The notes under the pieces were generated by a model. That model was not told where the DNA came from and searched no databases. It was given only the letters and a program-made list of their open reading frames with translations. Position numbers and translations under genes: made by a program. Positions 3,433 through 20,916 of a stretch of DNA of 64,000 nt are shown here, one piece after another (within the stretch, counting starts at the first letter, position 1; the number at the start of each line of letters is the position of its first letter). The stretch comes from Lutibacter maritimus (lineage in GTDB: Bacteria > Bacteroidota > Bacteroidia > Flavobacteriales > Flavobacteriaceae). The DNA lies in NCBI RefSeq assembly GCF_900116115.1, contig NZ_FOZP01000006.1, forward strand, positions 62,001 through 126,000. The letters run 5' to 3'.

Positions 3433-3440
3433 GATTAAGT

Positions 3441-3500
3441 GTCACTATTTTTACGGTTGAGCCTCCTTATATAAGAAGATTTTAAATATAAAATAGTGAC
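3441..3500. repeat. Inverted repeat between helicase-like and DUF1643 genes
   Basis: GTCACTATTTT at 3441-3451 is repeated inverted as AAAATAGTGAC at 3490-3500, a perfect 11-bp match separated by 38 bp. A related AGTTACACT follows at 3507. The spacing is too wide for a normal terminator. It could be an operator, a recombination or replication site, or a long-loop hairpin. Confidence 0.6.
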
Positions 3501-3531
3501 ATAAAAAGTTACACTAAAAAAGAAGAAAATA

Positions 3532-4122
3532 ATGATAAAAAATCAATTCATAATAACAGGACTATACTATGAAGAGCTAGGATTTAAGTTCCGTAAGTAC
3601 TTAGATATTAAGAAAATCAATTCAGACATTTGTAAACCAGATATAATGGTAATAATGATGAATCCTGGCTCTTCAAGGCCTATAAATGGTATAGATAATA
3701 ATACAGAAGAATCACTAGCAATTCCTGATCGTACGCAAGACCAGATTATGGAGGTTATGCAAAATTGTGATTTTGAATATGCTCGAGTACTAAATTTATC
3801 CGATTACCGTGAAGCGAATAGCAATGAATTCTATAAAATGATTCCAGTACTAGAAACTGAGCAAATCTCACATTCTATTTTTGACGAATCACGCAAAGAA
3901 GATTTACAAGCACTTTGGGTAAACAAAGTCCCAGTTATTTTTTCCTGGGGCGTAAATCCAAAACTAAAATCATTAGCTTTAAATGCAATTAAGGCTATCA
4001 ATATCACAAATCCTATTGGTTGGCAAAAAACTGATTTTAAGTGGGCATATTACCACCCTTTGCCTAGAATACATAAGAATCAAATTGAATGGGTTACTCT
4101 AATTTCTAAAAAATTATATTAG
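3532..4122 (+). CDS. DUF1643-family protein
   Basis: The protein has 196 residues. The family pattern is visible: 'IMVIMMNPGSS' (about 41-51), 'PDRTQDQIMEVM' (about 67-78), 'ARVLNLSDYRE' (about 87-97) and a late 'YYHPLPR' block. DUF1643 proteins are widespread in mobile elements and have no settled function. The conserved 'NPS..D.T' layout suggests a small-molecule or nucleotide-binding enzyme, which is inference. It is preceded by the inverted repeat at 3441-3500 and followed by 158 bp of AT-rich spacer, so it may be its own transcription unit. Confidence 0.65.
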   Translation: MIKNQFIITGLYYEELGFKFRKYLDIKKINSDICKPDIMVIMMNPGSSRPINGIDNNTEESLAIPDRTQDQIMEVMQNCDFEYARVLNLSDYREANSNEFYKMIPVLETEQISHSIFDESRKEDLQALWVNKVPVIFSWGVNPKLKSLALNAIKAINITNPIGWQKTDFKWAYYHPLPRIHKNQIEWVTLISKKLY

Positions 4123-4280
4123 TGTATTTAAAGTGAGTCTAAACTAGCTTTACTACGATATAAACTTGAAAACACGACTTTAATACTTTATATTTGGTAG
4201 GTCTTTATGAAAAATTGCTACTAAGTTTCAAAAATGACAATTGCATTAGTTTTATTATTTATTTTGAAATTTTTACTTAA

Positions 4281-6032
4281 ATGAAATTAACTTCCAGAAT
4301 TGTACTAACTTTTAATGATATTTTTCCAGATGAGGAACCTAAAGGAATAAATGAATATCTGGATGGTATTGATAAAGATTTACTTATAAAATTCGGTTCT
4401 TTTATTTTAGGGTTTTCTAGAGACTCTAAGTACGAACATCCTGTAACGTTCTTGAAAATGTTTTTTTCTGAAGAAAACGATCAATTTTCTAGGGAAGTAT
4501 TTCTGAAATTACGAGCATTTGTTGGAGTTTCAGATAAACCAATTACAGATTACAGTTTTCCCTTTATTGTTAGTAGCTTGTCCTTTTTTGAAAATGCTTT
4601 TGCAGAAAATTTTGGCCTATTAAAAAATTATACAAACCAAGAAATTGAAATTAGAATTTTTAAGGCTTACTTATTATTAAATAAAATTAACACCACTAAT
4701 AGGACCTTCGTTTTAGATGAAAGTATAAGCTATTTAAAAGAAGATATCACCAAGTTTGCTACGGGTTACTGCATAGGTTTATTCTTAAATAGTTCAGATT
4801 TTGTTAACTATGATTTAAAAAAGGTATTTGTAACCCAAATAATTAGAGCAATATCATTTTTTGAATTTTTGGAAGGTATTGATAGTGCTCAAGAATTGTT
4901 AAAAGAATTCTATAAAGAATACAATGTATCAGGGTACTCCGCCTACTTAAAGGGATTATTACCTCTTGCAACTTCTGTTATTACTAACGAAAAAGAATCA
5001 CATACCGATATTATTATAACTGAAAACAAGAAAAAAGCATCAAATATCGAGTTCCTTGAAAAGTTTTCAATTGATCCATCTGAATTATTTGAAGCTTTTG
5101 ATTTCAATTATATGAGATCTGCTCCAGTTTATCGTTATGACGAAAATACATTTAGATTAACCTACCCTTTATTTGCACTTGAATTAATAGGTAATGGGTT
5201 ATATTTTAAGTTCAAAGCAATTAATGATGAACTACCCAAAGGAAAAAAAGTTAAAGACCTTTATGGTCTTAAAACTTATGATTTTTCTGAAAAATTTATA
5301 TTACATAAAGTTTTAAAAGATTATTTCGGAAATAGATTTTTCCAAAGAAATGGAGATGATTTAGATGCAGAATTTGAGGGGGCTCCAGATTACTATGTTC
5401 GTAATGGCAAAAAAATATTTCTATTTGAATCTAAAGACATATTGCTAAATGCAAAAGTAAAACAGTCGTCTGATTTTAACGAAATAAATAACGAGCTATC
5501 TATTAAACTTTATAAAAACGAAAAAGGAAAGCAAAAAGCAGTTTTACAAATTATTAATAATATTCGTAAAATTCTTACTAAAACATTAGAATTTGATTCA
5601 AAGTACAATCCAAGAAATATAATAATTCACCCAATATTAGTTTTGCACTATAGAATATTTAATACTACTGCTTTAAATAAATGGGTTAACTTTTGGTTTC
5701 AAGAAGAATTAAAAAATTTAGAACAAGAGGGGTTAGATGTGTCCAATGTAAAACCTTTACTTCTAATTGATATTGATACATTAATTTACAATAAAGATGT
5801 CTTCTCTGGCTGCAAGCTTTCATTAGAAGAAGTTTTAATTGAGTATCAGGAAGATTTTATAAATTTCAGTGTCAAAGATAAAAAATACAGAAGCGAAGAG
5901 GAAGCAACTCAAGCACTAAAGAATTCACTTATTCCTTTTGGGGAGTTTTTAGATAATAAAATAGATTTGAGTGGATTAAGAGTTGTACCTAAAGAATTTG
6001 AAGAGAAGACCTACGGATTATTTAAAGACTAG
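4281..6032 (+). CDS. Unknown protein with a PD-(D/E)XK nuclease-like motif
   Basis: The protein has 583 residues. The N-terminal ~330 residues are mainly helical and unassigned. A PD-(D/E)XK-type core is visible at 'APDYYV' (D370) followed by 'FLFESKD' (E383, K385). Conserved-looking K and Q residues follow in 'KGKQKAVLQIINNIRK', as in motif IV of this superfamily. There is no signal peptide or membrane segment. It lies 119 bp upstream of hsdM with its own leader, so it is next to but probably not within the restriction operon. A nuclease role in defence is inferred from the motif and context. I do not recognise the family. Confidence 0.5.
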   Translation: MKLTSRIVLTFNDIFPDEEPKGINEYLDGIDKDLLIKFGSFILGFSRDSKYEHPVTFLKMFFSEENDQFSREVFLKLRAFVGVSDKPITDYSFPFIVSSLSFFENAFAENFGLLKNYTNQEIEIRIFKAYLLLNKINTTNRTFVLDESISYLKEDITKFATGYCIGLFLNSSDFVNYDLKKVFVTQIIRAISFFEFLEGIDSAQELLKEFYKEYNVSGYSAYLKGLLPLATSVITNEKESHTDIIITENKKKASNIEFLEKFSIDPSELFEAFDFNYMRSAPVYRYDENTFRLTYPLFALELIGNGLYFKFKAINDELPKGKKVKDLYGLKTYDFSEKFILHKVLKDYFGNRFFQRNGDDLDAEFEGAPDYYVRNGKKIFLFESKDILLNAKVKQSSDFNEINNELSIKLYKNEKGKQKAVLQIINNIRKILTKTLEFDSKYNPRNIIIHPILVLHYRIFNTTALNKWVNFWFQEELKNLEQEGLDVSNVKPLLLIDIDTLIYNKDVFSGCKLSLEEVLIEYQEDFINFSVKDKKYRSEEEATQALKNSLIPFGEFLDNKIDLSGLRVVPKEFEEKTYGLFKD

Positions 6033-6151: not shown

Positions 6152-8863
6152 ATGGCAATAAAAAAATCCGAACTATACAGCTCATTATGGGCAAGTTGTG
6201 ATGAGTTAAGAGGTGGAATGGATCCAAGTCAATACAAAGATTATGTATTGGTAATGTTATTCCTAAAATACATAAGTGATAAATGGGCAGGCAAACCCTA
6301 TGCCCCAATTACAATTCCAGAAGGTTCTAGCTTTGATGATTTAAAAGCCCTTAAAGGGAATGATCATATTGGAGACCTTATAAATAAAAAAATAATTGGA
6401 CCTATTGCGAAAGCTAATCAGCTTTCTGATATGCCAGATTTTGATGATGTTACCAAATTAGGTGATGGAACAGAAATGGTAGAACGATTGACCAACTTGA
6501 TTGCAATTTTTGAAAAACCAGAATTAGATTTTAGTGGAAACCGTGCTGAAGGTGATGATATTTTAGGAGATGCCTATGAATACTTAATGCGGAATTTTGC
6601 TACGGAAAGCGGAAAAAGCAAAGGGCAATTTTATACACCTGCAGAAATCAGTAGAACAATGGCAATGATTATTGGAATTGATAAAGCCAATACAAGTGCC
6701 AACACCACTATTTATGATCCTACGTGTGGATCAGGTTCCTTATTGTTAAAAGTAGGTGTTACAGCAAATTCAAAATTAACATTATACGGCCAAGAAAAAG
6801 AAGCAACTACAGCTGGATTGGCACGTATGAATATGATTTTACACGATTATCCAACCGCTGAAATAAAACAAGGCAATACACTTTCCAAACCTTTATTTGA
6901 AGAAAATGGCAATTTAAAACAATTCGATTTTGTGGTAGCAAATCCACCGTTTAGCGACAAACGTTGGAGCAGCGGATTAACCTTGCCTGAAGATGGTAAA
7001 TACAATCGTTTTGCTGATTATGGTGTGCCACCATCTAAAAATGGAGATTTCGCCTATTTATTACATATTGTACGCTCGCTAAAACGTAACGGTAAAGGTG
7101 CCGTAATTTTACCTCACGGCGTTTTATTTAGAGGAAATGCAGAAGAAGTTATTCGTAAAAATTTAATTATAAAAGGCTATATAAAGGGAATTATTGGTTT
7201 GCCTCCAAATTTATTTTATGGTACAGGGATTCCTGCGAGTATAATTTTAATAGACAAAGAATATGCTGCAAACCGTAAAGGTATTTTTATGGTAGATGCA
7301 GGTAAAGGATTTGCTAAGGATGGTAATAAAAATAGACTGCGTGAGCAAGACATTCGTATGATAACCGATATTTTTAATAGCCAAATTGAAATCCCTGGAT
7401 ATAGTAAAATGGTGTCGGTTACCGAAATTCAAAATAATGAATACAATTTAAATATTCCTCGGTATATTGAAAGTCAAGATAAGGAAGATATTCAAGATAT
7501 TGAAGGACATTTAAAAGGCGGTATTCCAAACGTTGATATAGAAGATTTAAACAACTATTGGCAAGTGTACCCAAGTTTAAAAAGTAGTTTATTTCAACCT
7601 TTAAGAACCAAGTATTCAAGCCTGAAAATAAAAAAAGAATACATAAACCAAACTATTTTTGAACATCCTGAGTTTGTTACCTTTAGCAATCAAATGGACG
7701 AACTTTTTGCTACTTGGAAAACTGAAAGCATCACCTATTTAAAAGGGCAAGATGTTAACTGTCATCCTAAATCCATCATTAAAGAGTTAGATGAAAATAT
7801 ATTAACCAAATACCAAAACAAACCTTTGGTTAATAAATACAATATGTACCAACATTTACTAACCTATTGGAATGATACAATGCAAGATGATTGCTATATT
7901 ATTTCTTATGATGGTTGGAAAGCAGAAACATACCGCATTTATAAGGAGAACACCAAAAAGGTAATGGTAGATAAAGGTTGGACTTGTGACCTAGTGCCAA
8001 AAGACTTAGTTACAGATAGATTTTTCCCTGATGAAAAACTGGAAATTGACAATTTCAATGCCAATTTAGAAACAATTATAGCTGAATATACAGAGTTACA
8101 AGAAGAACATAGCGGTGAAGAAGCTGCGTTAAAAGATGTAACTAAAAAAACAGACGCACAAACAAACTTAATTGATTTTATAGATGTAGCCTTAAGCAAT
8201 TATTTTCCTAAGTTATTCACTTCAAGTGAAGATTTAAAAGAAGATTTGAGAATGTTAATTATTGAAGAGTTTCAATTGAAAAACAACGCCGCTTTAGAAC
8301 AATTAAAAAACGGAAAAGGCAACATCACCAAAAAAGCGATTACCGATAAATTAGCCAATGCTAATTGTAGTGACGATGAAAAAAAAGTGTTAAACAACTA
8401 TGTGAAAATTTTAGCTAAAAAAACTAAAGTAAATAAAGAGCTAAAAGCATTAAATGAAGCAATTGAAATAGCCATTAACAAGAAAATTGAAGAAGATAGC
8501 CAGTTAGAATATATTTTTGAAATTACCATTTTAAGAAAATACATTCAATTAAAAGATGATGAAACAGCTGTAAAAAAAGAAATAAAAGAGGCTGAAGATA
8601 AGTTGGATGCACTATTGTATGCCAAATACCCAACCTTAACTGCCGAAGAAATAAAAACATTAGTAGTAGTCGATAAATGGATGGTAGCTATTGAAAATGC
8701 AGTTAAAAGTGAAATAGACAACATTAGCCAACGTTTAACCAACCGTATAAAAGAATTAACGGAACGTTATGAAACACCTTTACCATTAATTAATACGGAA
8801 ACTTCTCTTTTAGAAAATAAAGTTTCAGAACATCTAAAAAAAATGGGATTTGTATGGAATTAA
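6152..8863 (+). CDS. hsdM: Type I restriction-modification DNA methyltransferase subunit
   Basis: The protein has 903 residues and transfers a methyl group from SAM to adenine N6 as the M subunit of the HsdRMS complex. The HsdM N-terminal helical domain occupies about residues 5-140. Then come 'GQFYTP' (158-163), SAM-binding motif I 'DPTCGSGSLL' (189-198) and catalytic motif IV 'NPPF' (264-267). Ordinary HsdM is about 500 residues. Here about 400 extra C-terminal residues, rich in Lys/Glu and predicted-looking coiled coils (about 640-870), extend the protein. It is the first gene of an ~14.8 kb operon and overlaps hsdS by 10 bp. The leader at 6033-6151 probably holds the promoter. Confidence 0.95.
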   Translation: MAIKKSELYSSLWASCDELRGGMDPSQYKDYVLVMLFLKYISDKWAGKPYAPITIPEGSSFDDLKALKGNDHIGDLINKKIIGPIAKANQLSDMPDFDDVTKLGDGTEMVERLTNLIAIFEKPELDFSGNRAEGDDILGDAYEYLMRNFATESGKSKGQFYTPAEISRTMAMIIGIDKANTSANTTIYDPTCGSGSLLLKVGVTANSKLTLYGQEKEATTAGLARMNMILHDYPTAEIKQGNTLSKPLFEENGNLKQFDFVVANPPFSDKRWSSGLTLPEDGKYNRFADYGVPPSKNGDFAYLLHIVRSLKRNGKGAVILPHGVLFRGNAEEVIRKNLIIKGYIKGIIGLPPNLFYGTGIPASIILIDKEYAANRKGIFMVDAGKGFAKDGNKNRLREQDIRMITDIFNSQIEIPGYSKMVSVTEIQNNEYNLNIPRYIESQDKEDIQDIEGHLKGGIPNVDIEDLNNYWQVYPSLKSSLFQPLRTKYSSLKIKKEYINQTIFEHPEFVTFSNQMDELFATWKTESITYLKGQDVNCHPKSIIKELDENILTKYQNKPLVNKYNMYQHLLTYWNDTMQDDCYIISYDGWKAETYRIYKENTKKVMVDKGWTCDLVPKDLVTDRFFPDEKLEIDNFNANLETIIAEYTELQEEHSGEEAALKDVTKKTDAQTNLIDFIDVALSNYFPKLFTSSEDLKEDLRMLIIEEFQLKNNAALEQLKNGKGNITKKAITDKLANANCSDDEKKVLNNYVKILAKKTKVNKELKALNEAIEIAINKKIEEDSQLEYIFEITILRKYIQLKDDETAVKKEIKEAEDKLDALLYAKYPTLTAEEIKTLVVVDKWMVAIENAVKSEIDNISQRLTNRIKELTERYETPLPLINTETSLLENKVSEHLKKMGFVWN

Positions 8864-10035
8864 AACAAAATGTTGCCCTAAGCGCGTTGAAGGGTTATAA
8901 AAATACAGTGATTGGTGTTATTCCAGAGGATTGGGTAGTAACTAGATTAGGTGATGTTTTAAAAATTAGGCACGGAAAAAGTCAAAAAGAAGTTGAAGTA
9001 ATAAATGGGAAGTACCCCATTTTAGGCACAGGTGGTATAATGGGAGCTACAAATACATATTTATATAATAAACAGTCTGTGTTAATTGGAAGAAAAGGGA
9101 CTATTGATAAGCCTAGATTTATGGATACTCCATTTTGGACTGTTGATACTTTATTTTATTCAGAAATATTTGAAAATGCTATTCCTAAATATTTATTTTA
9201 TAATTTTCTACTGATTGATTGGTATTCTCATAATGAGGCTTCTGGCGTACCGAGTTTAAATGCTTCAAAAATTGAAAACATTAAAATTCCGATGCCTTCT
9301 ACCAAAGAAGAACAAAAATCCATAGCCCAAGTATTAACCGATACTGATAACCTAATACAAACCATAGAACAAAAACTCTCTAAAAAAAGAAACATAAAAC
9401 AAGGTGCTATGCAACAATTGTTAACACCTAAAAAAGATTGGGAGGTTAAGAAGTTACCCGATGTTTGTTGGTTTCAAGAAGGTCCTGGATTAAGAAATTG
9501 GCAGTTCACTAAAAATGGAATGAAAGTGATCAATGTTACAAATCTTGTAAATGGTTATCTAAATCTTGATAAAACCGATAGGCATATTTCAATGAAGGAG
9601 TTTGAAAATATGTATAAACACTTTGAAATTGATGAGAATGATATTGTAATGGCTAGTTCTGGGAATTCTTATTCTAAAGTTGCAGTAGTAAGAAAACAAG
9701 ACTTGCGTTTACTAATGAATACTAGTGTAATTCGCTTTAAACCAATAAACGGTTTAGATTATAACTACTTATTAATTTTTCTAAAGTCAAACACTTTTAA
9801 AGATCAAATTGATTTATTGATAACTGGTGGTGCACAACCAAATTTTGGTCCATTCCATTTAAATAAGATTGATATTTTCTTACCACCAACAAAAAATGAA
9901 CAAACCAAAATAGCTACTATTCTTAAAGATATGGATAATGAAATTGAACAATTAGAAGAAAAATTATCAAAATATAAATTGCTGAAACAAGGGCTTATGC
10001 AAAATTTACTTACTGGTAAAATTAGGTTGGTATAA
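8854..10035 (+). CDS. hsdS: Type I restriction-modification specificity subunit
   Basis: The protein has 393 residues, the usual length. It has two target-recognition domains (about 20-150 and 200-340). Each is followed by a conserved helical spacer: 'EEQKSIAQVLTDTDNLI...KLSKKRNIKQGAMQQLL' and 'NEQTKIATILKDMDNEI...KLSKYKLLKQGLMQNLLTGK'. The two spacers are clearly related, as expected for HsdS, and set the distance between the two half-sites of the recognised sequence. The gene overlaps hsdM by 10 bp. No second hsdS, spare TRD cassette or recombinase is nearby, so there is no sign of shuffling. Confidence 0.95.
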   Translation: MELKQNVALSALKGYKNTVIGVIPEDWVVTRLGDVLKIRHGKSQKEVEVINGKYPILGTGGIMGATNTYLYNKQSVLIGRKGTIDKPRFMDTPFWTVDTLFYSEIFENAIPKYLFYNFLLIDWYSHNEASGVPSLNASKIENIKIPMPSTKEEQKSIAQVLTDTDNLIQTIEQKLSKKRNIKQGAMQQLLTPKKDWEVKKLPDVCWFQEGPGLRNWQFTKNGMKVINVTNLVNGYLNLDKTDRHISMKEFENMYKHFEIDENDIVMASSGNSYSKVAVVRKQDLRLLMNTSVIRFKPINGLDYNYLLIFLKSNTFKDQIDLLITGGAQPNFGPFHLNKIDIFLPPTKNEQTKIATILKDMDNEIEQLEEKLSKYKLLKQGLMQNLLTGKIRLV

Positions 10036-10054: not shown

Positions 10055-11089
10055 ATGAAAATTGAAACCATAAACAACAAAGCGTATAAACTTCCAAATG
10101 AATTAAATAATTTTCAGAAAGAACTATATGTTCACCTCATCAACTATAAATGGAAATACATCACAAAAAAAGTAGGTTTATACAAGTATAGAAATACCTT
10201 TTTAGAATACGATGCCATTTTACCAGAAGAAGTTCAAGATAATTACCCAATAATTTATCCATCAGTATTAGCAGATGTATTGCAACATTTAAATAAATTT
10301 CCTTTTAAGTTACATACGCATTTTAATCATATGGCAAGCTCACAAGCTGCCAATGTAAATTTGTTTGTACCAATATTATTATCACCTAAAGCAAATGAAA
10401 TTCTAAAATTATTAAAGCCAGATTTTAAAGAATTAGCAGTTGCAGAATTGTACAAAGGATTTCGTATAGAATATTGGGATGGCAACAGTAATAAAGAAAA
10501 AGGCTTATTAGGAGATCATTCGGCCATTGCAGGTACTGATAGTGACATTGCAATTGCGTATTACAACCAAAGTAATGAGTTGTGTTTATGGTTAATTGAG
10601 CACAAATTAACTGAAGCTGAATTTTCTGTATGTGGAGGTGCTACAAGTAAAGGTAAAAAACCAGTACACAATTGCACTAAAACTTTTTCCGAAATTACAG
10701 AAAATAAAGAGACCTGTTATTACCATAGTGGTAGCAACTATAACTATTGGAACATTACAGAAAATCATAAAGATTTCTTTGTAAATAATAACAATAATTT
10801 AAGCTGTCCTTTTCAAAATGGGATGAATCAATTATGGAGAAATCAACTATTAGGTTTTGCCATTGAAGATGATAAAACAAATAATTTTAAAAATGTGGAC
10901 TTTTCAGTAGTGCATCATCCAGATAATCATTCTTTAGATGCTTCTATAAATGCCTACAAAAATTTAGTCGATAATAACTCAAAATTCTCATCATTTACTT
11001 CCAAAGATGTTATTGATAAAGCATTAATTGTAAAAGACAAAGAAATTGATAGTTGGATTACGTGGTATAGAGAATTGTATAATATTTAA
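10055..11089 (+). CDS. PD-(D/E)XK nuclease-like protein, PGN_0703-type
   Basis: The protein has 344 residues. A nuclease-like core is visible: 'AGTDSDIAIAY' (D162, D164) followed by 'LWLIEHKLTE' (E182, K184), which fits D-x(n)-E-x-K. Cysteines near residues 195, 208, 223 and 251 ('VCGG', 'HNCTK', 'ETCYY', 'LSCPF') could bind a metal or Fe-S cluster. The layout resembles the PGN_0703 family of putative restriction endonucleases of Bacteroidota, recalled from memory rather than searched. It lies 19 bp after hsdS and 19 bp before the next gene, so it is inside the operon. Confidence 0.6.
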   Translation: MKIETINNKAYKLPNELNNFQKELYVHLINYKWKYITKKVGLYKYRNTFLEYDAILPEEVQDNYPIIYPSVLADVLQHLNKFPFKLHTHFNHMASSQAANVNLFVPILLSPKANEILKLLKPDFKELAVAELYKGFRIEYWDGNSNKEKGLLGDHSAIAGTDSDIAIAYYNQSNELCLWLIEHKLTEAEFSVCGGATSKGKKPVHNCTKTFSEITENKETCYYHSGSNYNYWNITENHKDFFVNNNNNLSCPFQNGMNQLWRNQLLGFAIEDDKTNNFKNVDFSVVHHPDNHSLDASINAYKNLVDNNSKFSSFTSKDVIDKALIVKDKEIDSWITWYRELYNI

Positions 11090-11108: not shown

Positions 11109-11588
11109 ATGAAAGAATGCTTAATATTTATAATTGATGCTTTAAAAGATTTAGCACCATTATTTATATCTGTGATTGCAATTTGGTTAACGACACGTTA
11201 TCAAAACCACTCTAAGAAAATGGAAACAGATAGAATGCTTAAAGAATTATTCGCTGAATTTAATGAACGCTATGATAAAATCAACAATAAATTAGATGTA
11301 ATATCAAAATTAAGTGTTGAGCAATGGAATGAATTAAGTCAAACAAAACAATCAGAAAATGAAGGTGTTATTGTCGATTTTTTTAATATCTGTGCGGAGG
11401 AATATTATTGGCATAAGGAAGGTAGAATTAATGGTAATATTTGGACAAGTTGGGAAAAAGGAATGAATGACATCTACAATAGAAGCGAAATAATTCAAAA
11501 CATTTGGGAGCAAGAATGTCAAAATTCTGGCTTTCAATCGTATTACATAACAAAACCCAATACATTTTTTAAAGTATCTAAAATATGA
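11109..11588 (+). CDS. Small single-pass membrane protein of unknown function
   Basis: The protein has 159 residues from ATG 11109. The upstream ATG at 11046 would overlap the previous gene by 44 bp. One hydrophobic segment lies near the N-terminus (about residues 5-24), followed by a charged soluble region with 'DRMLKELFAEFNERYDKI' and later 'VDFFNICAEEYYWHKEGRI'. The layout recalls DUF4760-like membrane proteins, but I cannot confirm a family. It overlaps the following DUF262 gene by 4 bp, so translation may be coupled. A membrane-linked partner or effector for the restriction proteins is possible but unproven. Confidence 0.6.
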   Translation: MKECLIFIIDALKDLAPLFISVIAIWLTTRYQNHSKKMETDRMLKELFAEFNERYDKINNKLDVISKLSVEQWNELSQTKQSENEGVIVDFFNICAEEYYWHKEGRINGNIWTSWEKGMNDIYNRSEIIQNIWEQECQNSGFQSYYITKPNTFFKVSKI

Positions 11589-13366
11589 GTAAAAATAACA
11601 TTGAATTAAAAGCTATTAATGATGTTTTAGGATATAATTTTTACATCCCTTCATATCAAAGAGGTTATAGATGGACATCAGAACAGGTAACTGCATTATT
11701 AAATGATTTATGGGAATTCAAAGAAAATCAACCAACTCAAGAAGCTGGTAAAGAAGCCCCTTTTTATTGTTTACAACCTATAGCTGTTAAAAATTACAAA
11801 GAAAATGAAAAAGATTATTGGGAAGTAATTGATGGTCAACAAAGATTAACCACAATTTTAATTATTCTATATTATTTTAATGAAACGGAATTCAAAACGC
11901 CAAAACCAATATTTAATTTAAAATATCAAACTCGCAACGATAGTGAACAATTTTTAAAAAATATAAAAGACACTTCGTTAGCTGCTAAAAACGTAGATTA
12001 TCATCACATTAATCAAGCTTTTATTACAATCTCTGATTGGTTTTTGGAAAAGGAAAAATCCAATGCTGCAACTAAAAATTTATTCTACCCTATTTTAATA
12101 AATCAAACCAAAGTGATATGGTATGAAGTAAATGATGGTTCGGATTCTATTGATATTTTCACGCGTTTAAATATGGGAAAAATTCCATTAACAAATGCTG
12201 AGTTAGTAAAAGCTTTATTTCTTAGAAAAGGGAATTTCAAGAAAGAAAGCGAAGATAAAATCAGATTACGTCAATTACAAATTGCTTCCGAATGGGATAA
12301 AATTGAAAACACGTTACAAGATGATTCTTTTTGGTATTTCATTTACAATACTTCAAATCATTTTAAATACGATACACGCATTGAATACATTTTTGATTTA
12401 ATGAAAGATAAGAAAGTTGAAGATGAAAAATTATGTACGTTTTATAAATTTAATGATGCTTTTGAGGAAAGTAAAGCAAATAATAAAGACGTTCCAGATA
12501 TAGATAATTTATGGCTAGAGATAAAAAAGTATTTTTTAACTTTTGAAGAATGGTATAAAAATAGAGAATTATACCATTTAGTTGGTTTTTTAATTGCAAC
12601 AAATAGCGATATTAAAACTATAAAATTAGAAGCCGAAAGCAAAACTAAAACAGAGTTTAAAAAGTATTTAAAAAAGGAAATTAGAAAGAAAGTAAAATGT
12701 AAAATAAAGGATTTAAATTATAAAAATCCATTGGTTAAAACAATATTATTACTATTTAATATTCAAACTATTGTAAGCAACAAAGATTCCAATATGCGTT
12801 TCCCTTTTGATAGGTATGAAACAGAAAATTGGGATATCGAACATATTCGTTCTCAAACAGATAAATCTATTACTGGTAATTCAAGAAAAGATTGGGCTCG
12901 TGATATCCTAGAATATTTTACCGGTGAAAAAACGAAAGACAAACAGCAAGCAATAATTGATAATTCTTTGGTGGATAATATTAAAAAGTTTGCAATAAGA
13001 TTATTGCAAGTTAGTGAAGCAGATAGAATTATAGATGTTGAGTTTAATGATTTATATACTGAATTAGTTGAATATTTTAAGGAAGATAAAGAACCTGATG
13101 ATATTGATAGCATTTCAAATTTAGCCCTATTAGATGCCAGAACAAATAGAAGTTATAAAAACGCAATGTTCCCTATTAAGCGTAAAACAATTCTTGAAAA
13201 TGATATGACTGGTACTTTTATTCCTCTATGTACAAAAAATGTTTTTTTAAAATCATACAGTAAAAAATTAGATGAAATTATGTATTGGAAAAATACGGAT
13301 GCAAATGATTATTTAACTGCAATTGAAGATACACTAAAAATTTATTTACCAGATCAAAAAGACTAA
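11585..13366 (+). CDS. DUF262 + DUF1524 protein, GmrSD-like type IV restriction enzyme
   Basis: The protein has 593 residues. The N-terminal DUF262 (GmrS-like, ParB-fold nucleotidase) domain shows 'IPSYQRGYRW' (about 21-30) and 'DGQQRLTT' (D83-T90). The C-terminal DUF1524 (GmrD-like, His-Me/HNH nuclease) domain shows 'WDIEHI' (E419, H420) and 'NLALLDARTNRSYKN' (from N512). Single-chain fusions of these domains restrict DNA with modified bases, for example glucosylated hydroxymethylcytosine. Key residues appear intact. It overlaps the membrane-protein gene by 4 bp and ends 1 bp before a second DUF262 gene, inside the type I operon. Confidence 0.85.
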   Translation: MSKNNIELKAINDVLGYNFYIPSYQRGYRWTSEQVTALLNDLWEFKENQPTQEAGKEAPFYCLQPIAVKNYKENEKDYWEVIDGQQRLTTILIILYYFNETEFKTPKPIFNLKYQTRNDSEQFLKNIKDTSLAAKNVDYHHINQAFITISDWFLEKEKSNAATKNLFYPILINQTKVIWYEVNDGSDSIDIFTRLNMGKIPLTNAELVKALFLRKGNFKKESEDKIRLRQLQIASEWDKIENTLQDDSFWYFIYNTSNHFKYDTRIEYIFDLMKDKKVEDEKLCTFYKFNDAFEESKANNKDVPDIDNLWLEIKKYFLTFEEWYKNRELYHLVGFLIATNSDIKTIKLEAESKTKTEFKKYLKKEIRKKVKCKIKDLNYKNPLVKTILLLFNIQTIVSNKDSNMRFPFDRYETENWDIEHIRSQTDKSITGNSRKDWARDILEYFTGEKTKDKQQAIIDNSLVDNIKKFAIRLLQVSEADRIIDVEFNDLYTELVEYFKEDKEPDDIDSISNLALLDARTNRSYKNAMFPIKRKTILENDMTGTFIPLCTKNVFLKSYSKKLDEIMYWKNTDANDYLTAIEDTLKIYLPDQKD

Positions 13367-13367
13367 T

Positions 13368-15818
13368 ATGAGCACAAACGAAATACAAACGCAATCTGGT
13401 GAAAGATTAACTTTTTTCCAACTTTTCAATGAAAAGAAATATCAAATTGAAATTCCAATAATCCAAAGAGATTATGCGCAAGGTAGAAATTCAACTTCTG
13501 AAATTAGAAATCTATTTATAGATGCATTATATAATTATTTAGAAGAAAATAAAAAACACAGGGATTTAGACTTTGTTTATGGTAGTTTATTAAACGAAAA
13601 TAATGAGAACGACACCAAATTTATTCCGTTAGATGGCCAACAAAGATTAACAACTCTTTTCTTGTTGCATTGGTATTTGGCAAATAAAGATGGTGAAATT
13701 GATTTATTTCGTAAAAATCTCTCCATTGATAATAAATCTAAATTCACGTATGAAACTCGAACAAGTTCAAAGGAGTTTTGTGATGCATTAATCAATAGCA
13801 ACATCGATTTAGATAACTTACTACCTTCCGATAAAGACAAAAAAAATAATATATCTAAAACCATCCAAGACTGTGGATGGTATTATTTATCTTGGGAAAG
13901 CGATCCAACTATTAAATCTATGTTGGTTATGCTAGATACCATTCACGAAAAATTTAAAAATGCTTCCAATTTTTTTGAAAGATTAATAAGTGTTGACAAT
14001 CCAGTTATAACGTTTCAATTTTTAAATTTAAATGAATTTAAACTTACGGATGATTTATATATTAAAATGAATGCAAGAGGTAAACCACTTACACCATTTG
14101 AAAACTTTAAAGCCAAATTTGAACAATTAATAGCTAGGACAAATTTTACGGATCCACCAGTATATAAATTAGAACATAATGGAGTAGAAAAAGATGTTCC
14201 AGTTCAAGAATATTTTTCTTTTAAAATTGACACAGATTGGTCTAATTTGTTTTGGAATTACCGCAATGAAAAATATGTGTTTGATGATAAAATAATGAAT
14301 TTATTAAGAGCAACTATAGTAAATCATTATGCGAAACATTCATCAGAAAACAATGTTAAGTTTTTAATAGATAGGGATAAAAAAAATACGACTATTTCAT
14401 TTCAACAATATAAAAACTTAGCAGGTTTTGATGAAACTTTTATTATTCAGTTTATTGAATTGCTGGATAGCATTAAGAATGGTAATAATCCTATCAAAAC
14501 ATTTTTAAATGGTTCTTTTTACTACGACGAACAAGCTATTTTCAAAAAAGCAATTGAAAATGATTTTGATAATTTTACACAAAGAGTTCAATTTTACGCC
14601 TATTGTCAATATTTAATATTTTGGAAATCAGACAAGGGTTTGTTAGAATGGATGCGTGTAATTCATAATTTATCTGAAAATACAATTTATAATAGTGAAA
14701 GGGAATTTATAAGATCCATTAAGGGTATTTCTAAATTGTTACCATTTAGTAATAACATTCTTGCACATTTAATAAGTGGTTCAAAAATAGAAGGATTTAA
14801 TAATCAACAACTAATTGAAGAAGAAATAAAAGCGCTTCTTATTCAAGATGATAAATGGGAAAGTGCCATTTTAAAAATGGAACAACATAATTATTTTAAA
14901 GGTCAAATTAGCTTTTTATTGTATTTTTCAGGTATTTCAGATTATCACAATAATAATAAAGATTGCAATTGGTCTGGTGTTGATAATGATTTGTATTTTA
15001 AATCTTTTCAAAATTATGCAAAAAAAGCAACAACTATTTTTGACGAAAATGGATTAATTAAATTTAAAGATAATTTATGGCGTAGAGCCTTATTAACAAA
15101 AGGAAACTATTTATTGTCAGAAGGTAGTAATATTAGCTTTTTAATAGATTTCGATAGAGATATAAGTTGGAAAAGATTATTATTTGATGGAGGTAGCAGA
15201 GTAATCCCTTATGATAAAGGATTTCGCAGAGATTATATAAAACAAGTATTTGATGATGCTAATTTTGATGAAAACGAAATTGAAAACAGTTTAAGAACCA
15301 TTATAAAAGATTCAATATCTTCGGTTACTGATTGGAGAAGAAACTTTATTGATATACCTGAGTTATTGGATTATTTAGGGCCTAAAAATTACATTCGATT
15401 TATAAATGAAGACAGAATATTTTTATTGTCTAAAGAGCGTATGAATGGGATGCATAGTGAATATTATTCTCATAGCTTTTTTTATAAATATGTGAATAAA
15501 AAAGAGACAGTTCCTTTTAAAAGTTCTTTTTATTTCTATTCAAATAAAGATGAAGACTGGCCTTGTATTGTTATTTCTGATTGGAAATATGAAGGAGATA
15601 ATTTTGAAATACACATCAAGTATGATCCTCTAAAAAAACTATATGAACTAGTGTTTTTTGATACAGGTGAGAATGAGTTGAATAAAAAAGTAGATGAAAT
15701 TTTAAATTTAAATAATCTAAAGGATGATGATGGAGAAGGCTATTATTCTATATTCTCAACTGAATCAGATATAGCAAGTGTTTTAAATAAATTACTTAGC
15801 TCCTTTAAAAATTTATAG
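13368..15818 (+). CDS. Second DUF262 protein without a visible HNH domain
   Basis: The protein has 816 residues. DUF262 features are 'IPIIQRDYAQGR' (about 29-40), 'PLDGQQRLTT' (D89-T95) and 'KMNARGKPLTPFENFKAKFE' (about 233-252). The remaining ~550 residues do not show the 'EHI...N..LL...N' pattern of DUF1524. The C-terminal part has 'DYLGPKNYIRFINEDRIFLL' and a beta-rich end. It may be a sensor or regulatory partner for the adjacent DUF262-DUF1524 enzyme, or use an unrecognised effector domain. It sits 1 bp after that gene and 2 bp before hsdR. Confidence 0.75.
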   Translation: MSTNEIQTQSGERLTFFQLFNEKKYQIEIPIIQRDYAQGRNSTSEIRNLFIDALYNYLEENKKHRDLDFVYGSLLNENNENDTKFIPLDGQQRLTTLFLLHWYLANKDGEIDLFRKNLSIDNKSKFTYETRTSSKEFCDALINSNIDLDNLLPSDKDKKNNISKTIQDCGWYYLSWESDPTIKSMLVMLDTIHEKFKNASNFFERLISVDNPVITFQFLNLNEFKLTDDLYIKMNARGKPLTPFENFKAKFEQLIARTNFTDPPVYKLEHNGVEKDVPVQEYFSFKIDTDWSNLFWNYRNEKYVFDDKIMNLLRATIVNHYAKHSSENNVKFLIDRDKKNTTISFQQYKNLAGFDETFIIQFIELLDSIKNGNNPIKTFLNGSFYYDEQAIFKKAIENDFDNFTQRVQFYAYCQYLIFWKSDKGLLEWMRVIHNLSENTIYNSEREFIRSIKGISKLLPFSNNILAHLISGSKIEGFNNQQLIEEEIKALLIQDDKWESAILKMEQHNYFKGQISFLLYFSGISDYHNNNKDCNWSGVDNDLYFKSFQNYAKKATTIFDENGLIKFKDNLWRRALLTKGNYLLSEGSNISFLIDFDRDISWKRLLFDGGSRVIPYDKGFRRDYIKQVFDDANFDENEIENSLRTIIKDSISSVTDWRRNFIDIPELLDYLGPKNYIRFINEDRIFLLSKERMNGMHSEYYSHSFFYKYVNKKETVPFKSSFYFYSNKDEDWPCIVISDWKYEGDNFEIHIKYDPLKKLYELVFFDTGENELNKKVDEILNLNNLKDDDGEGYYSIFSTESDIASVLNKLLSSFKNL

Positions 15819-15820
15819 GT

Positions 15821-18800
15821 ATGGATACTATTGGGCAACGTGAAAAAGAAACTCAAAAAAGAGTTATTAAACTTTTTAAAGAAGAATTAAGCTACAATTA
15901 TTTAGGTGATTGGACAGAGAGACCAAAAAATAGTAACATTGAAGAAGAATTTCTTTCAAATTATTTAGTTCGTAAAGGATATAGTCAAACCCAAATTAAT
16001 AAAGCAATTTATGAATTAAAAAGGACCTCAATTAATTTTAACGATAGTCTATATACAACAAATAAAAATGTGTACCAATCTCTTAGGTACGGTGTAAAAG
16101 TGAAGGCAAATGTTGGTGAAAATTATGAAACTATAAAACTGATAAATTGGAGTGATTTTTCTGATAATGATTTTGCAATTGCAGAAGAAGTAACTATAAC
16201 AGGGAATCTTACAAAAAGACCAGATATTGTAATTTACGTAAATGGTATCGCTTTAGGTGTTATTGAATTAAAAAGGGGAATTGTTGATATTGGAGAAGGA
16301 ATTCGCCAAAACATTACCAATCAACAAGACCGTTTTATCCAACCTTTTTTTACAACTGTACAATTTATCTTTGCCGGTAATGATAGTGAAGGCTTGCGTT
16401 ATGGGACTATAAACACACCAGAAAAATATTATTTAAACTGGAAAGAAGATATTGAAGATAACAGCAGATTATTGTTAGATAAATATTTACTTAAAATGTG
16501 CTCTAAAGAGAGATTTATTGAGTTGATATATAATTTTGTGCTGTTTGATGGAGGTGTTAAAAAAGTTCCAAGAGTAAATCAATATTTTGGTATAAAGGAA
16601 GCTCAGAAATTTATAAACCGTTATGAAAGCGGAATTCTGTGGCATACACAAGGTAGTGGGAAAAGTATTATTATGGTACTCTTAGCTAAATGGATTCTAG
16701 CAAATAATCCAAAAGCAAGAGTTGTAGTTTTAACTGATCGTACTGAGTTAGACAAACAAATACAAGGTGTTTTTGAAGATGCAGGCGAAACAATATATAG
16801 AACAAAAAGCGGAAAAGATTTAATGTCACAATTAGGTGAGCCATCACCAAGACTATTATGCTCTTTAATCCATAAATTTGGCAAAAAAGATGTTACTAAT
16901 TTCAATAAATATATTGAAGATCTTATACAAAATCCAATAGATGTAATTGGTGAACTTTTTGTTTTTATTGATGAATGCCATAGAACGCACGGAGGCAAAT
17001 TAAACCGTGCAATGAAAGCGATGTTGCCTAATGCAGTTTTCATTGGTTTTACGGGAACTCCGTTGCTTAAAGCTGATAAAAAATCTAGTTTAGAAGTTTT
17101 TGGAAAATACATTCATACCTATAAATTTAATGAAGCCGTTATTGACAAAGTTATTTTAGATTTAATGTATGACCCTCGTGATATTGACCAAAAAATCACT
17201 TCACAAAAGAAAATAGATGAATGGTTTGAAGCTAAAACGAAAGGTTTAAATGACTTTCAAAAGTTTGCCCTTAAAAAGAAATGGGGTACGATGCAGCATT
17301 TATTGAGCAGCCAATCTCGAATGGATAAAATTGTAAAAGATATTATTTTTGATTTTGGCACCAAACCTAGACTAAGTTCAGAGTGTGGAAATGCAATATT
17401 GGTTACAAGTTCCATAAATGATGCGTGTAAGTACTATACATTATTTCAAAAAACAGGTTTTAAAAATCAATGTGCAGTTATAACATCCTATAGTCCTAAT
17501 AAAAATGACATCACAACTGAAGATATTGGGGCGAATACTGAAACCGATAAAGAAGCCATTTATAATTTATACGAAGAACTGTTAAAAGATATTAAAGTTC
17601 AACCAAATAAAACAAAAACAGAAAGTTATGAAGATTGGGCAAAACTAAAATTTCAAAAAGAACCAGCCAATATGAAATTACTTATAGTAGTTTCAAAATT
17701 GTTAGTAGGTTTTAATGCGCCAACTTGTACATACATATATCTCGATAAAAAAATGCAAGATCACGGCTTATTCCAAGCAATATGTAGGGTAAATCGTTTA
17801 GATACTGATGATAAAGAATTTGGCTATATAGTAGATTATCAAAACCTTTTTCAACCATTAGGTGATGCAATGGCAGTATATACATCAGAACTAGATGCCG
17901 ATAATTTCAATGCAGATGATATTAATGTATTATTAAAAGATCGTTTGAAAGCTGGAAAGGAAAGACTGGAAGGTGCTCTAGAAGAATTGGCCTTATTGTG
18001 TGAGCCTGTAAAACCACCTAAAGGCACGTTGGAATATATCCAATACTTCTGTGGAAATACTGAAATTGAAGACGATTTAAAATCAAGAGAACCTCAAAGA
18101 ATTGCATTATACAGAAATACTGTTTCACTAGTACGTGCCTATGCTAATATTGCTGATGATATTGATAATTTAGGCTATTCCACAAGTGAAATTACTAAAA
18201 TCAATACGGATATTGATTTTTATGCAAAATTACGTCAGGAAATCAAACAAGCAAGTGGTGAAACAATAGATTTAAAATCGTATGAAGCAGATATGCGTCA
18301 TTTATTGGATACTTATATCCAAGCAGAAGATCCTGAAAACATTTCCCCTTTTGGTGATATGTCTTTATTGGAAATAATTGAAAACTCAGGTATCGCAGAT
18401 GCTATAAGTTCATTAGGTAGTGGAATTAGAAAAAACAGAGGAGCAGTTGCAGAAGCTATTGAAAATAATATTAGAAGTAAAATAATAAATGAGCGCTTAA
18501 CAAATCCTGCATTTTTCGAGAAAATGTCAAAACTTTTGGAAGCCTTAATTATAGAGCGTAAGGAAGATGCAATTAGTTACGAGGAATATTTAAAAAAGAT
18601 AGCCATACTTGCAAAACAAGCCAATGCAGGTAAAACAGATGATACACCTGATATTCTAAAAACACCTGCATTAAGAGCTTTATACAGCTTCCTAAATAGT
18701 GAAGGAATGGCATTAGTTGTAGATGAGGTTGTAAGAGAAACCAAAAAAGATGGTTGGCGTGGTAATTCTGCAAAAGAGCAAGAAATAAAGTATGCATTAT

Positions 18801-18871
18801 ATATGGTTACTAATGATCACGAACAAGTAGAAAAGCTTTTCAATCTAATTAAAGAACAAAAAGAATATTAA
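15821..18871 (+). CDS. hsdR: Type I restriction endonuclease subunit
   Basis: The protein has 1016 residues and is the ATP-driven translocase and nuclease of the HsdRMS complex. The N-terminal PD-(D/E)XK nuclease has 'RPDIVIY' (D135) and 'VIELK' (E149, K151). The motor has Walker A 'TQGSGKS' (ending S282), 'DECH' (384-387) and 'GFTGTPLL' (motif III). A later 'LFQAICRVNRL' matches motif VI. The C-terminal ~300 residues are helical, as in EcoR124I-like HsdR. All key residues are present, so the enzyme looks active. It follows the second DUF262 gene by 2 bp and shares 1 bp with the next start. Confidence 0.95.
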   Translation: MDTIGQREKETQKRVIKLFKEELSYNYLGDWTERPKNSNIEEEFLSNYLVRKGYSQTQINKAIYELKRTSINFNDSLYTTNKNVYQSLRYGVKVKANVGENYETIKLINWSDFSDNDFAIAEEVTITGNLTKRPDIVIYVNGIALGVIELKRGIVDIGEGIRQNITNQQDRFIQPFFTTVQFIFAGNDSEGLRYGTINTPEKYYLNWKEDIEDNSRLLLDKYLLKMCSKERFIELIYNFVLFDGGVKKVPRVNQYFGIKEAQKFINRYESGILWHTQGSGKSIIMVLLAKWILANNPKARVVVLTDRTELDKQIQGVFEDAGETIYRTKSGKDLMSQLGEPSPRLLCSLIHKFGKKDVTNFNKYIEDLIQNPIDVIGELFVFIDECHRTHGGKLNRAMKAMLPNAVFIGFTGTPLLKADKKSSLEVFGKYIHTYKFNEAVIDKVILDLMYDPRDIDQKITSQKKIDEWFEAKTKGLNDFQKFALKKKWGTMQHLLSSQSRMDKIVKDIIFDFGTKPRLSSECGNAILVTSSINDACKYYTLFQKTGFKNQCAVITSYSPNKNDITTEDIGANTETDKEAIYNLYEELLKDIKVQPNKTKTESYEDWAKLKFQKEPANMKLLIVVSKLLVGFNAPTCTYIYLDKKMQDHGLFQAICRVNRLDTDDKEFGYIVDYQNLFQPLGDAMAVYTSELDADNFNADDINVLLKDRLKAGKERLEGALEELALLCEPVKPPKGTLEYIQYFCGNTEIEDDLKSREPQRIALYRNTVSLVRAYANIADDIDNLGYSTSEITKINTDIDFYAKLRQEIKQASGETIDLKSYEADMRHLLDTYIQAEDPENISPFGDMSLLEIIENSGIADAISSLGSGIRKNRGAVAEAIENNIRSKIINERLTNPAFFEKMSKLLEALIIERKEDAISYEEYLKKIAILAKQANAGKTDDTPDILKTPALRALYSFLNSEGMALVVDEVVRETKKDGWRGNSAKEQEIKYALYMVTNDHEQVEKLFNLIKEQKEY

Positions 18872-19584
18872 TGTCTCAAATTCAACTTGGAAATATTACT
18901 ATAGACGTTGTACAAAAGGATATAAAAAATATTCATTTGAGCATTCATCCACCAATAGGTAAAGTTACAATTGCTGCGCCGGAACAAATGAGTTTGGATA
19001 CAATTAGAGTATTTGCTATTTCAAAATTGCAATGGATAAAAAAACAACAAGAAATTATAAGAAGCCAACCACGTGAGGCACCAAGAGAATACATCAATAG
19101 AGAAAGTCATTATTTTTTAGGAAAAAGATACTTATTAAAAATAATCGAATGTAATAGCACACCAAAAATTATTTTAAAACACAGCCGAATAGAGCTGTAT
19201 ATTAAAGAAAATACAACTACTGAAAAAAGAGAAGAAATAATTGCAGAGTGGTATCGTAGTCAATTAAAAGAAATCATTCCTCCAATAATATCTAAATGGG
19301 AAAAGAAAATTGGAGTTAAATCAAACGAGTTTGGAATAAAAAGAATGAAAACAAAATGGGGCACTTGTAATATAGAAGCAAAGCGTATTTGGCTAAACCT
19401 TGAATTGGCAAGAAAACCATTAGAATGTTTAGAATATATTATAGTGCACGAACTAGTACATTTATTAGAAAGAAATCACAATCAACGCTTTATAAATTTT
19501 ATGGATGAATTTATGCCTAAATGGGAATTCTATCGGGATGAATTAAACAGGTTGCCATTCAGACATATCGAATGGAAATATTAA
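18871..19584 (+). CDS. YgjP/M48-type metallopeptidase (DUF45)
   Basis: The protein has 237 residues. The zinc-peptidase motif is 'HELVHLLERNH' (H193, E194, H197 and a possible third ligand H203), preceded by 'KTKWGTCN' (about 162-169), which is typical of the YgjP/DUF45 family. It starts on the last base of the hsdR stop codon. Genes of this family are often found beside hsdR in type I restriction loci, but their role there is not established. There is no signal peptide, so it is probably cytoplasmic. Confidence 0.9.
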   Translation: MSQIQLGNITIDVVQKDIKNIHLSIHPPIGKVTIAAPEQMSLDTIRVFAISKLQWIKKQQEIIRSQPREAPREYINRESHYFLGKRYLLKIIECNSTPKIILKHSRIELYIKENTTTEKREEIIAEWYRSQLKEIIPPIISKWEKKIGVKSNEFGIKRMKTKWGTCNIEAKRIWLNLELARKPLECLEYIIVHELVHLLERNHNQRFINFMDEFMPKWEFYRDELNRLPFRHIEWKY

Positions 19585-19596
19585 ATTAAATCAACT

Positions 19597-20664
19597 ATGA
19601 CATTAATTATTGGATGTATAACTCCTGAATATGGTATAATTGCTGGAGACACGCAGCTTACAACCACAGGACTTGATAGAGATGAAAAAGACAGGTTGAG
19701 TACTCAAATTAAGCTTAAATATTATTATCCAAACTTTATGACTGGTATTCTTGGAAAATGGAGCTGGTTTTCTGTTGGAGATAACGGTATTGCAAACTAT
19801 ATTAATGAATATGAAAATTTAATCAATTGTATTAATCCCAGAGAAGTTGAAAATAAATTAGATGGCGCAAGTAGGTTTCTTATTGGTCGTGAAAAAATTG
19901 ATGCAACATTAATATATATTAAAAAAGAAAATGATGATTTAGAGCTTAACGCTATATCAAATAATGGTTGTCATAAAGATTTGAAAAGATTGGAAATATC
20001 TAATTCCCAGTATCTTTTCAATGAACCCTTTAATAGTTTAAAGGATGATTTAGTAACAAATATAATTTACGAACTAATCGGAAAATATAATTTAACTGAA
20101 AGTTTACTAGATAATTTATTTTTAATTAATAATGCTATTTTAAAACTTATAACATTGGGCAAAACCCTTGATATATCTAACAAAACAGAAAATGTACTAG
20201 GGGTTAAAAATACCGTTGGTGGTTATGTTACAATACAGGTTTTACAAATGAATAAAACATTTAATTTTAATTATTTGTTTCAACCTTATAGCTCGGATTT
20301 CAATTGTCTTTTGGATAAAACATCGAATCCATTTTCAAACTACATTAATTGTAATTCTTATATTAGATATATTGATAATCTAGGGATGATATTTAAAAAA
20401 ATAAAATTTCCAGAATGCGCTGATCTAAAAAACACATTGATTGAATTAGGAATCAAGCAAATTAATTACATATCAGAAAATAATATTTTAATAGGAAGCG
20501 ATCTTAATGAAATTATAAACGTAATTAATAAAAAATATGATTTATCCATACCAACTATTGAAATAAAAATAGAAGATTCAGAAAGTGAATTTATAGGTTT
20601 AAATCTAGTTTTAGATGTTGAAGAAAATAATGTAAATATTGAATATTTAAAAAGATTTATATAA
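19597..20664 (+). CDS. Proteasome/HslV-like Ntn-hydrolase
   Basis: The protein has 355 residues. The N-terminus 'MTLIIGCITPEYGIIAGDTQ' follows the proteasome-beta/HslV pattern. Removal of Met would expose Thr2 as the N-terminal nucleophile, with Asp18 at the place of the conserved D17 of HslV. A Lys (K39 or K41) precedes 'PNFMTGILG', as K33 precedes the G-x-x-G turn in HslV. 'VGGYVTIQVLQ' near residue 208 is another Ntn-like strand. At 355 residues it is much longer than HslV (~175) or proteasome beta (~210-240), with ~140 unassigned C-terminal residues. It lies 12 bp after the metallopeptidase. The Ntn call is a motif reading, not a search result. Confidence 0.6.
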   Translation: MTLIIGCITPEYGIIAGDTQLTTTGLDRDEKDRLSTQIKLKYYYPNFMTGILGKWSWFSVGDNGIANYINEYENLINCINPREVENKLDGASRFLIGREKIDATLIYIKKENDDLELNAISNNGCHKDLKRLEISNSQYLFNEPFNSLKDDLVTNIIYELIGKYNLTESLLDNLFLINNAILKLITLGKTLDISNKTENVLGVKNTVGGYVTIQVLQMNKTFNFNYLFQPYSSDFNCLLDKTSNPFSNYINCNSYIRYIDNLGMIFKKIKFPECADLKNTLIELGIKQINYISENNILIGSDLNEIINVINKKYDLSIPTIEIKIEDSESEFIGLNLVLDVEENNVNIEYLKRFI

Positions 20665-20685: not shown

Positions 20686-20916
20686 ATGAGAGAAATAGTA
20701 ATTGCAGCCTTTGAAAATCAAACAGACAATTTTAAAGCTGATTTAAAAAGAGAGTTTGAAAAAGAAATTCCTAGAGTTATTCATCCTCACATTTATAAAA
20801 CTAAAGTTATTTTATTAACTAAATTAAAGGATGAAATAGAGAGCACAAACGTAAATACAATTGTAGATATTAAAACGATTGAAAGCATTCTTTTTTCTTT
20901 TTTATTTGAAGATTAA
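20686..20916 (+). CDS. Small unknown protein at the end of the restriction operon
   Basis: The protein has 76 residues, with many charged residues and no membrane segment or known motif. It starts 21 bp after the Ntn-hydrolase gene on the same strand, so it is probably the last gene of the operon. It could be a partner, inhibitor or regulator of the Ntn-hydrolase, which is a guess from position only. Confidence 0.55.
   Translation: MREIVIAAFENQTDNFKADLKREFEKEIPRVIHPHIYKTKVILLTKLKDEIESTNVNTIVDIKTIESILFSFLFED

Follow-up and report, generated by a model that had tools for sequence, protein, structure and literature searches.

Proteasome-like proteins form a superfamily that is defined by Thr1, Asp17, Lys33 and an oxyanion glycine, Gly47 (PMC8665760). 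In bacteria, Anbu and 22 uncharacterised proteasome homologues are known as stand-alone proteins of this kind, and several of them carry extra C-terminal domains (PMC8665760). The main survey of these bacterial homologues, published by Fuchs et al. in 2021, gives no genomic context suggestive of function, and restriction is not mentioned in it (PMC8665760). Proteolytic control of a restriction enzyme by ClpXP is established for the HsdR subunit of EcoKI (PMC4231737). It is also known that unrelated immune systems have repeatedly taken up nuclease-protease pairs, in which a trypsin-like or caspase-like protease is joined by a partner nuclease (PMC12799240); this is a precedent for a shared proteolytic module.

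The gene considered here lies at 19597-20664 (+) of the window, that is, the whole 64,000-nucleotide stretch of Lutibacter maritimus DNA that was analysed. Its family, for which an Ntn hydrolase reading is likely, though not proven, has in common with HslV and the 20S proteasome β subunits (PF00227) an N-terminal Thr, an Asp17, a Lys and an oxyanion Gly with matching spacing, and the order of elements in the modelled part appears alike. It differs from the PF00227 proteins in going undetected by that profile, in its length of about 355 aa and in an extra C-terminal region of some 130 aa. Unlike HslV, it has no HslU/AAA+ gene adjoining it or in its operon, and is linked to restriction-modification (R-M) instead. 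Like Anbu and the 22 homologues it seems to be a stand-alone protein. A recurrent R-M context is not reported for those 22 clusters, and the family may nevertheless coincide with one of them. In contrast to the nuclease-protease pairs, no constant partner gene accompanies it among the loci examined.

The type I operon and its last large gene

The operon runs on the forward strand in the order hsdM, hsdS, PD-(D/E)XK nuclease, small protein, two GmrSD proteins, hsdR, ygjP, Ntn gene and perhaps a 76-aa ORF. hsdM (6152-8863; PF02384, E 3e-102) and hsdS (8854-10035; PF01420, E 7e-43) are followed by the PD-(D/E)XK-type nuclease (REase-ARP/PDDEXK_13; 10055-11089; PF22558, E 1e-18) and, after the small protein, by a GmrSD/DUF262 protein with a GmrSD_C domain (11585-13366; PF03235, E 4e-33) and a further GmrSD/DUF262 protein (13368-15818; PF03235, E 9e-25). 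The type I restriction subunit, hsdR (15821-18871; PADLOC PDLC03044), is 67% identical to its counterpart at L049, a related locus. The ATG of the next gene overlaps the hsdR stop codon. This gene encodes a YgjP/SprT-like zinc metallopeptidase (18871-19584; PF01863, E 4e-61), which is the HExxH metallopeptidase of the first-pass annotation. The start on the stop codon and the 12-nt spacing between ygjP and the Ntn gene, both claimed there, are seen in the sequence. The 76-aa ORF (20686-20916) lies 3′ of the Ntn gene and may not belong to the operon; it is not conserved, and tblastn against the related loci gave no match. A scan for terminator-like sites counted no more in the operon than in shuffled sequence, and a single transcript is neither favoured nor opposed by it.

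The small protein (11109-11588), for which the start codon was inferred from the L049 homologue, has a hydrophobic N-terminus. It lies between hsdS, or the gene that follows hsdS, and GmrSD, and is 67% identical to the product of L049:1948-2421. Neither protein matches any family, and by sequence the pair appears to be a second undescribed cargo gene.

The Ntn gene begins with ATG and is the last large gene of the operon. Its sense frame is open over all 355 aa, while the antisense frame is rich in stops. The product has the N-terminus MT-LIIGC and contains D18, K39 and K41, just as was first described together with the coordinates of the frame. Residues from about 1 to 217 make up the putative catalytic domain, and residues 220-355 the C-terminal region. 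The closest pairs of relatives show dN 0.15 with dS 1.23 and dN 0.30 with dS 2.12 (dN/dS about 0.12-0.14); the gene is under purifying selection. The existence of full-length relatives and a dN/dS far below 1 establish that the frame is a real gene under selection.

Family members and the putative active site

As a single sequence, the Ntn protein found no match in Pfam, PADLOC, NCBIfam, PHROGs, PDB, plasmids, phages, viral_contigs or genome_contigs. PF00227 did not reach its curated cut-off for the family; its matches in the class were HslV, Anbu-like proteins and a few other Ntn proteins, and the present family was not among them. Scans were therefore steered with hand-made degenerate variants of the first 60 residues, each match then being checked and upheld in a tblastn search that used the unaltered protein. 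These N-terminal scans uncovered a full-length relative, 45% identical to the window protein, on a contig of a viral collection (L049), and four more in Flavobacteriaceae genomes (L050, L051, L052 and L053). A profile of the relatives added two others among 397 sampled genomes of the same taxonomic family, one at L067 (genome G903) and a divergent one at L066 (genome G863).

The total is eight members, the window protein and seven full-length relatives with 28-46% identity to it or to its kin. Pairwise identities over the whole family are 28-73%, and every known host belongs to the Flavobacteriaceae. No member was found in 109 genomes sampled across the phylum (its own excluded), nor in plasmids and phages when these were queried with two other family members. 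The remaining matches of the 397-genome search are weak and partial, and the one examined in context is due to chance. Weak, partial matches of E about 1e-3 in the sampled genomes were likewise discarded, since those checked (a secreted-type protein at L007, and L060 of genome G050) are chance matches. Judged by these searches, the family is small, rare, patchy and without a name until now. Its fold class is a known one, yet the family is not recognised by the libraries used; the lack of matches in Pfam, NCBIfam, PADLOC, PHROGs and PDB supports the earlier suggestion of an undescribed branch.

In an alignment of all eight members, T2, D18, K39 and G53 are invariant and correspond to proteasome Thr1, Asp17, Lys33 and Gly47; they make up the candidate active site. 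The first-pass annotation had named conservation of Thr2 and Asp18 beforehand as a point on which its reading could fail, and neither residue varies. K39 is the lysine; K41, offered as the other choice, was rejected as it is not conserved. The distance between T2 and D18 is 16 residues, exactly as between Thr1 and Asp17, and the K39-G53 spacing of 14 is that of Lys33-Gly47, the Thr-Lys stretch being 4-5 residues longer than in the proteasome. The invariant positions include M1-T2-L3-I4, G6, A16-x-D18-T19-Q20, K39, L52-G53 and W55, and further F141-N142, N178-N179, V207-G-G-Y210 and a DN pair at 260-261. For proteasome Ser129, Asp166 and Ser169, no clear equivalent is seen in the family.

The proposed resemblance to HslV is not significant for the single sequence but shows clearly in the family profile and in an N-terminal matrix. 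When the single window sequence was compared with HslV/Anbu, 22 residues were aligned at an hhalign probability of 1%. The profile-profile comparison, on the other hand, scored 37.8 (probability 51%), with an alignment that covers residues 1-27 in register from residue 1; 200 profiles with shuffled columns did not exceed 23.3. The HslV/Anbu profile used there includes L046, itself noticed through the same N-terminal motif, and without L046 the score is 26.6. An ungapped matrix was also built on the N-terminal 21 residues of HslV, Anbu-like and a single further Ntn protein, with 746 ORFs from the window and the loci as background. All eight members score above every non-Ntn N-terminus of these ORFs, and when the 21 residues of the window protein were shuffled 200,000 times, its score was reached 10 times. 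The N-terminal likeness to HslV/Anbu thus appears, at the sequence level, to be real and in register, but short and confined to about 27 residues.

Outside the training set, the only other high scorer was L046 (- strand, 323-1177), an orphan Ntn-like protein of 284 aa (MTFISSVIAKQGIILAADSK...) with a sub-threshold match to PF00227.

Genomic settings and the proposed role

The loci were found through the protein pattern only, and context played no part in their selection. Seven of the eight members end an R-M operon. Four kinds of R-M backbone that are unrelated to one another are represented, three of type I and one of type III; the members are not all independent. The window and L049 share the type I system with YgjP. 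L050 and L051 have a type I system with an M-S fusion and SIR2-like and HEPN-like genes, while L053 and L067 have a type I system with an EcoR124-like HsdR, the Ntn gene being preceded by a membrane protein in one and by pentapeptide and PIN genes in the other. At L052, the Ntn gene stands at the end of a type III mod-res operon. L066 has no R-M; an integrase precedes the Ntn gene there, and NACHT-like and P-loop genes follow. Where an R-M operon is present, the gap to the Ntn gene at its 3′ end is 2-17 nt and once 82 nt. Between the groups, the R subunits either show no detectable similarity or align in short or partial stretches in which identity does not exceed about 29%. In the tree, the member nearest to the type I pair L050/L051 is the type III member L052, with modest support (89/92), so that the gene has probably, as judged from sequence, moved between R-M classes.

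In three pairs, the identities of the Ntn protein and the R subunit are 46 and 68%, 60 and 87%, and 73 and 91%, respectively; the Ntn protein is the less conserved. This also holds against YgjP, HEPN and SIR2 wherever they were compared, and the one gene that diverges about as much is the M-S fusion, whose recognition domains are variable. Rapid divergence by itself is no proof of an effector role.

The Ntn slot in R-M operons is optional. Genome G879 (L013) holds an operon of the same type (HsdR 66%, YgjP 67%) in which the slot is filled by a different HExxH protein, and the hsdR-ygjP operons examined on plasmids, including L014 and L015, have no adjoining Ntn gene. YgjP, for its part, lies beside the Ntn gene in only the window and L049, and was rejected as an obligatory partner. 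A joint linkage to hsdR and ygjP is not seen in the other six, which sit in type III, EcoR124-like, non-R-M and other settings.

We give about an even chance to the reading that this new, rare Ntn hydrolase family is most likely an interchangeable defence hydrolase of R-M systems, probably a peptidase, and not a dedicated enzyme of HsdR turnover. An auxiliary defence hydrolase is favoured because the cargo-like exchange, the fast divergence and the NACHT-like neighbourhood fit it, and the 'effector' alternative of the first-pass annotation agrees better with the data than its HsdR control. The data show the gene and its family, the conserved residues, the R-M linkage over four unrelated backbones, the purifying selection and the fast divergence; fold, catalysis, substrate, trigger and effector role are what we infer. 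Removal of the methionine would expose Thr1 as the nucleophile, and in the mature numbering Asp17, Lys38 and Gly52 would equal proteasome Asp17, Lys33 and Gly47. Thr1 would then attack a peptide or amide bond, and the enzyme would act when the operon is engaged during infection or when restriction has been overcome.

A guard that comes into action upon a block of restriction has a precedent in toxins such as PrrC, the genes of which lie within type I operons. A more specific proposal, which is speculative and rather unlikely in its full form, is that the Thr peptidase is a reusable R-M module, kept silent by the restriction complex and cutting a host or phage protein once restriction is engaged or blocked. 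If true, it would be the first proteasome-type Thr peptidase to serve as an R-M immunity module, and would give type I and type III systems alike a second line of defence that is proteolytic. The family has no known phage-defence phenotype. It appears that bacterial antiviral defence has recruited a relative of the proteasome, and with this family the cargo of R-M operons would gain an enzyme class. Its recurrence at the 3′ end of four unrelated R-M kinds opens the function of a bacterial proteasome relative to direct testing.

It is doubtful that the protein instead guards against self-damage by trimming or degrading the R subunit (HsdR or Res), as a dedicated stand-in for ClpXP-mediated alleviation. 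The control of EcoKI HsdR by ClpXP mentioned above speaks for it, as does the position of the gene, the last one of an ATP-dependent translocating system in all seven R-M cases. Such a turnover enzyme is disfavoured because the gene is shared by systems with unrelated R subunits, a type III one among them, and because one copy, at L066, exists without R-M. EcoR124-like type I and type III systems are among the hosts, yet the alleviation of EcoR124I is reported to involve neither ClpXP nor proteolysis, and the need for alleviation is described as specific to type I (PMC4231737). Furthermore, the Ntn protein diverges faster than HsdR, and operons of the same type, hsdR-ygjP included, exist without the gene. 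The notion that it sets the level of HsdR together with YgjP, which accompanies only two of the eight, is not supported.

Behind the hsdR-ygjP genes of G879, the slot protein (L013:2760-3734, - strand) is 324 aa long, carries HEYIH and is zincin-like (SprT-like, E 0.02); the slot may be repeatedly occupied by peptidases. The hsdR-ygjP linkage is also seen on Enterobacteriaceae and Pseudomonas plasmids (L014, L015, L017), where the cargo between hsdS and hsdR differs (a DUF262 pair; a TrlF-type ATPase). No functional report on this linkage was found in the literature.

Fold model and alternative chemistries

An Ntn fold is probable for the family. AlphaFold gave an unusable model from the single sequence (pLDDT 36) and a weak one from six sequences (pLDDT 58, pTM 0.64), in which residues 1-44 stay below pLDDT 50 and are not resolved. 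Past residue 40, the weak model runs as strand, strand, helix 71-79, helix 87-96, four strands at 104-142, helix 152-163, helix 170-188 and strand, which is the proteasome-β order save for an extra hairpin (56-70). With this model, the best Foldseek match in the PDB was a 20S β subunit, at an E of 0.1 and a probability of 0.84, below significance. Among viral folds, no match was convincing.

A non-proteolytic Ntn enzyme, be it a connectase-like protein ligase or a small-molecule/tag amidohydrolase, acting on a defence protein or signal, is improbable. The best Pfam match of the divergent member is the N-terminal domain of connectase (MJ0548, PF09894), over residues 1-29 at E 0.1, and the large extra C-terminal region recalls some connectase variants (PMC8665760). 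This match, however, is confined to one of the eight members and lies below the curated cut-off (12.6 against 26.8 bits). Connectase is without H1 and H2 and has a two-helix insertion between S3 and S4, whereas in the weak model helices 71-79 and 87-96 fall between S4 and S5 and appear to occupy the place of H1/H2. The hosts differ too, connectase being found in methanogens and the Ntn family here only in Flavobacteriaceae. Connectase is not among the PDB fold matches listed, and its absence there proves nothing.

About as improbable is another alpha-beta-beta-alpha protein, such as a relative of PP2C/SpoIIE-type phosphatases, with a convergent N-terminal match. In VIA-align, the PP2C-type domain of RsbU scored like proteasome β (Z 7.7, rmsd 4.0, 171 aligned, and Z 7.5, rmsd 4.9, 152 aligned, respectively), and a Z under 8 may reflect a mere common arrangement. 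The alpha-beta-beta-alpha sandwich was the other point on which the first-pass annotation had staked its reading, and in the weak model the match to it is shared with PP2C folds. The invariant DN pair would also suit such a relative. Nevertheless, the PP2C metal-binding motif DGxxG is missing from all eight members, for which PP2C was rejected as the family, and the invariant residues are concentrated at the extreme N-terminus, in M-T-L-I and AxDTQ, as is expected of an N-terminal nucleophile.

It is improbable, too, that the gene merely travels with mobile defence islands and is functionally unconnected with R-M, or that its product is a homologue that has lost catalysis: the rarity and patchiness of the family (two carriers beyond the window among the 397 genomes) and the differing neighbours would suit this, but the tight 3′-end position behind four unrelated backbones, the invariant catalytic residues and the purifying selection speak against it.

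Two stretches of surrounding DNA may be recorded here. Upstream of hsdM, the window carries at 1543-6032 a helicase-like protein of 629 aa and an unannotated protein of 583 aa, which may belong to one defence island with the R-M operon. At L066:7368-16618 and L072:669-4619, a tyrosine recombinase, the divergent member, a NACHT-like protein of 1772 aa and a protein of 1316 aa with a P-loop-like motif make up a candidate defence island.
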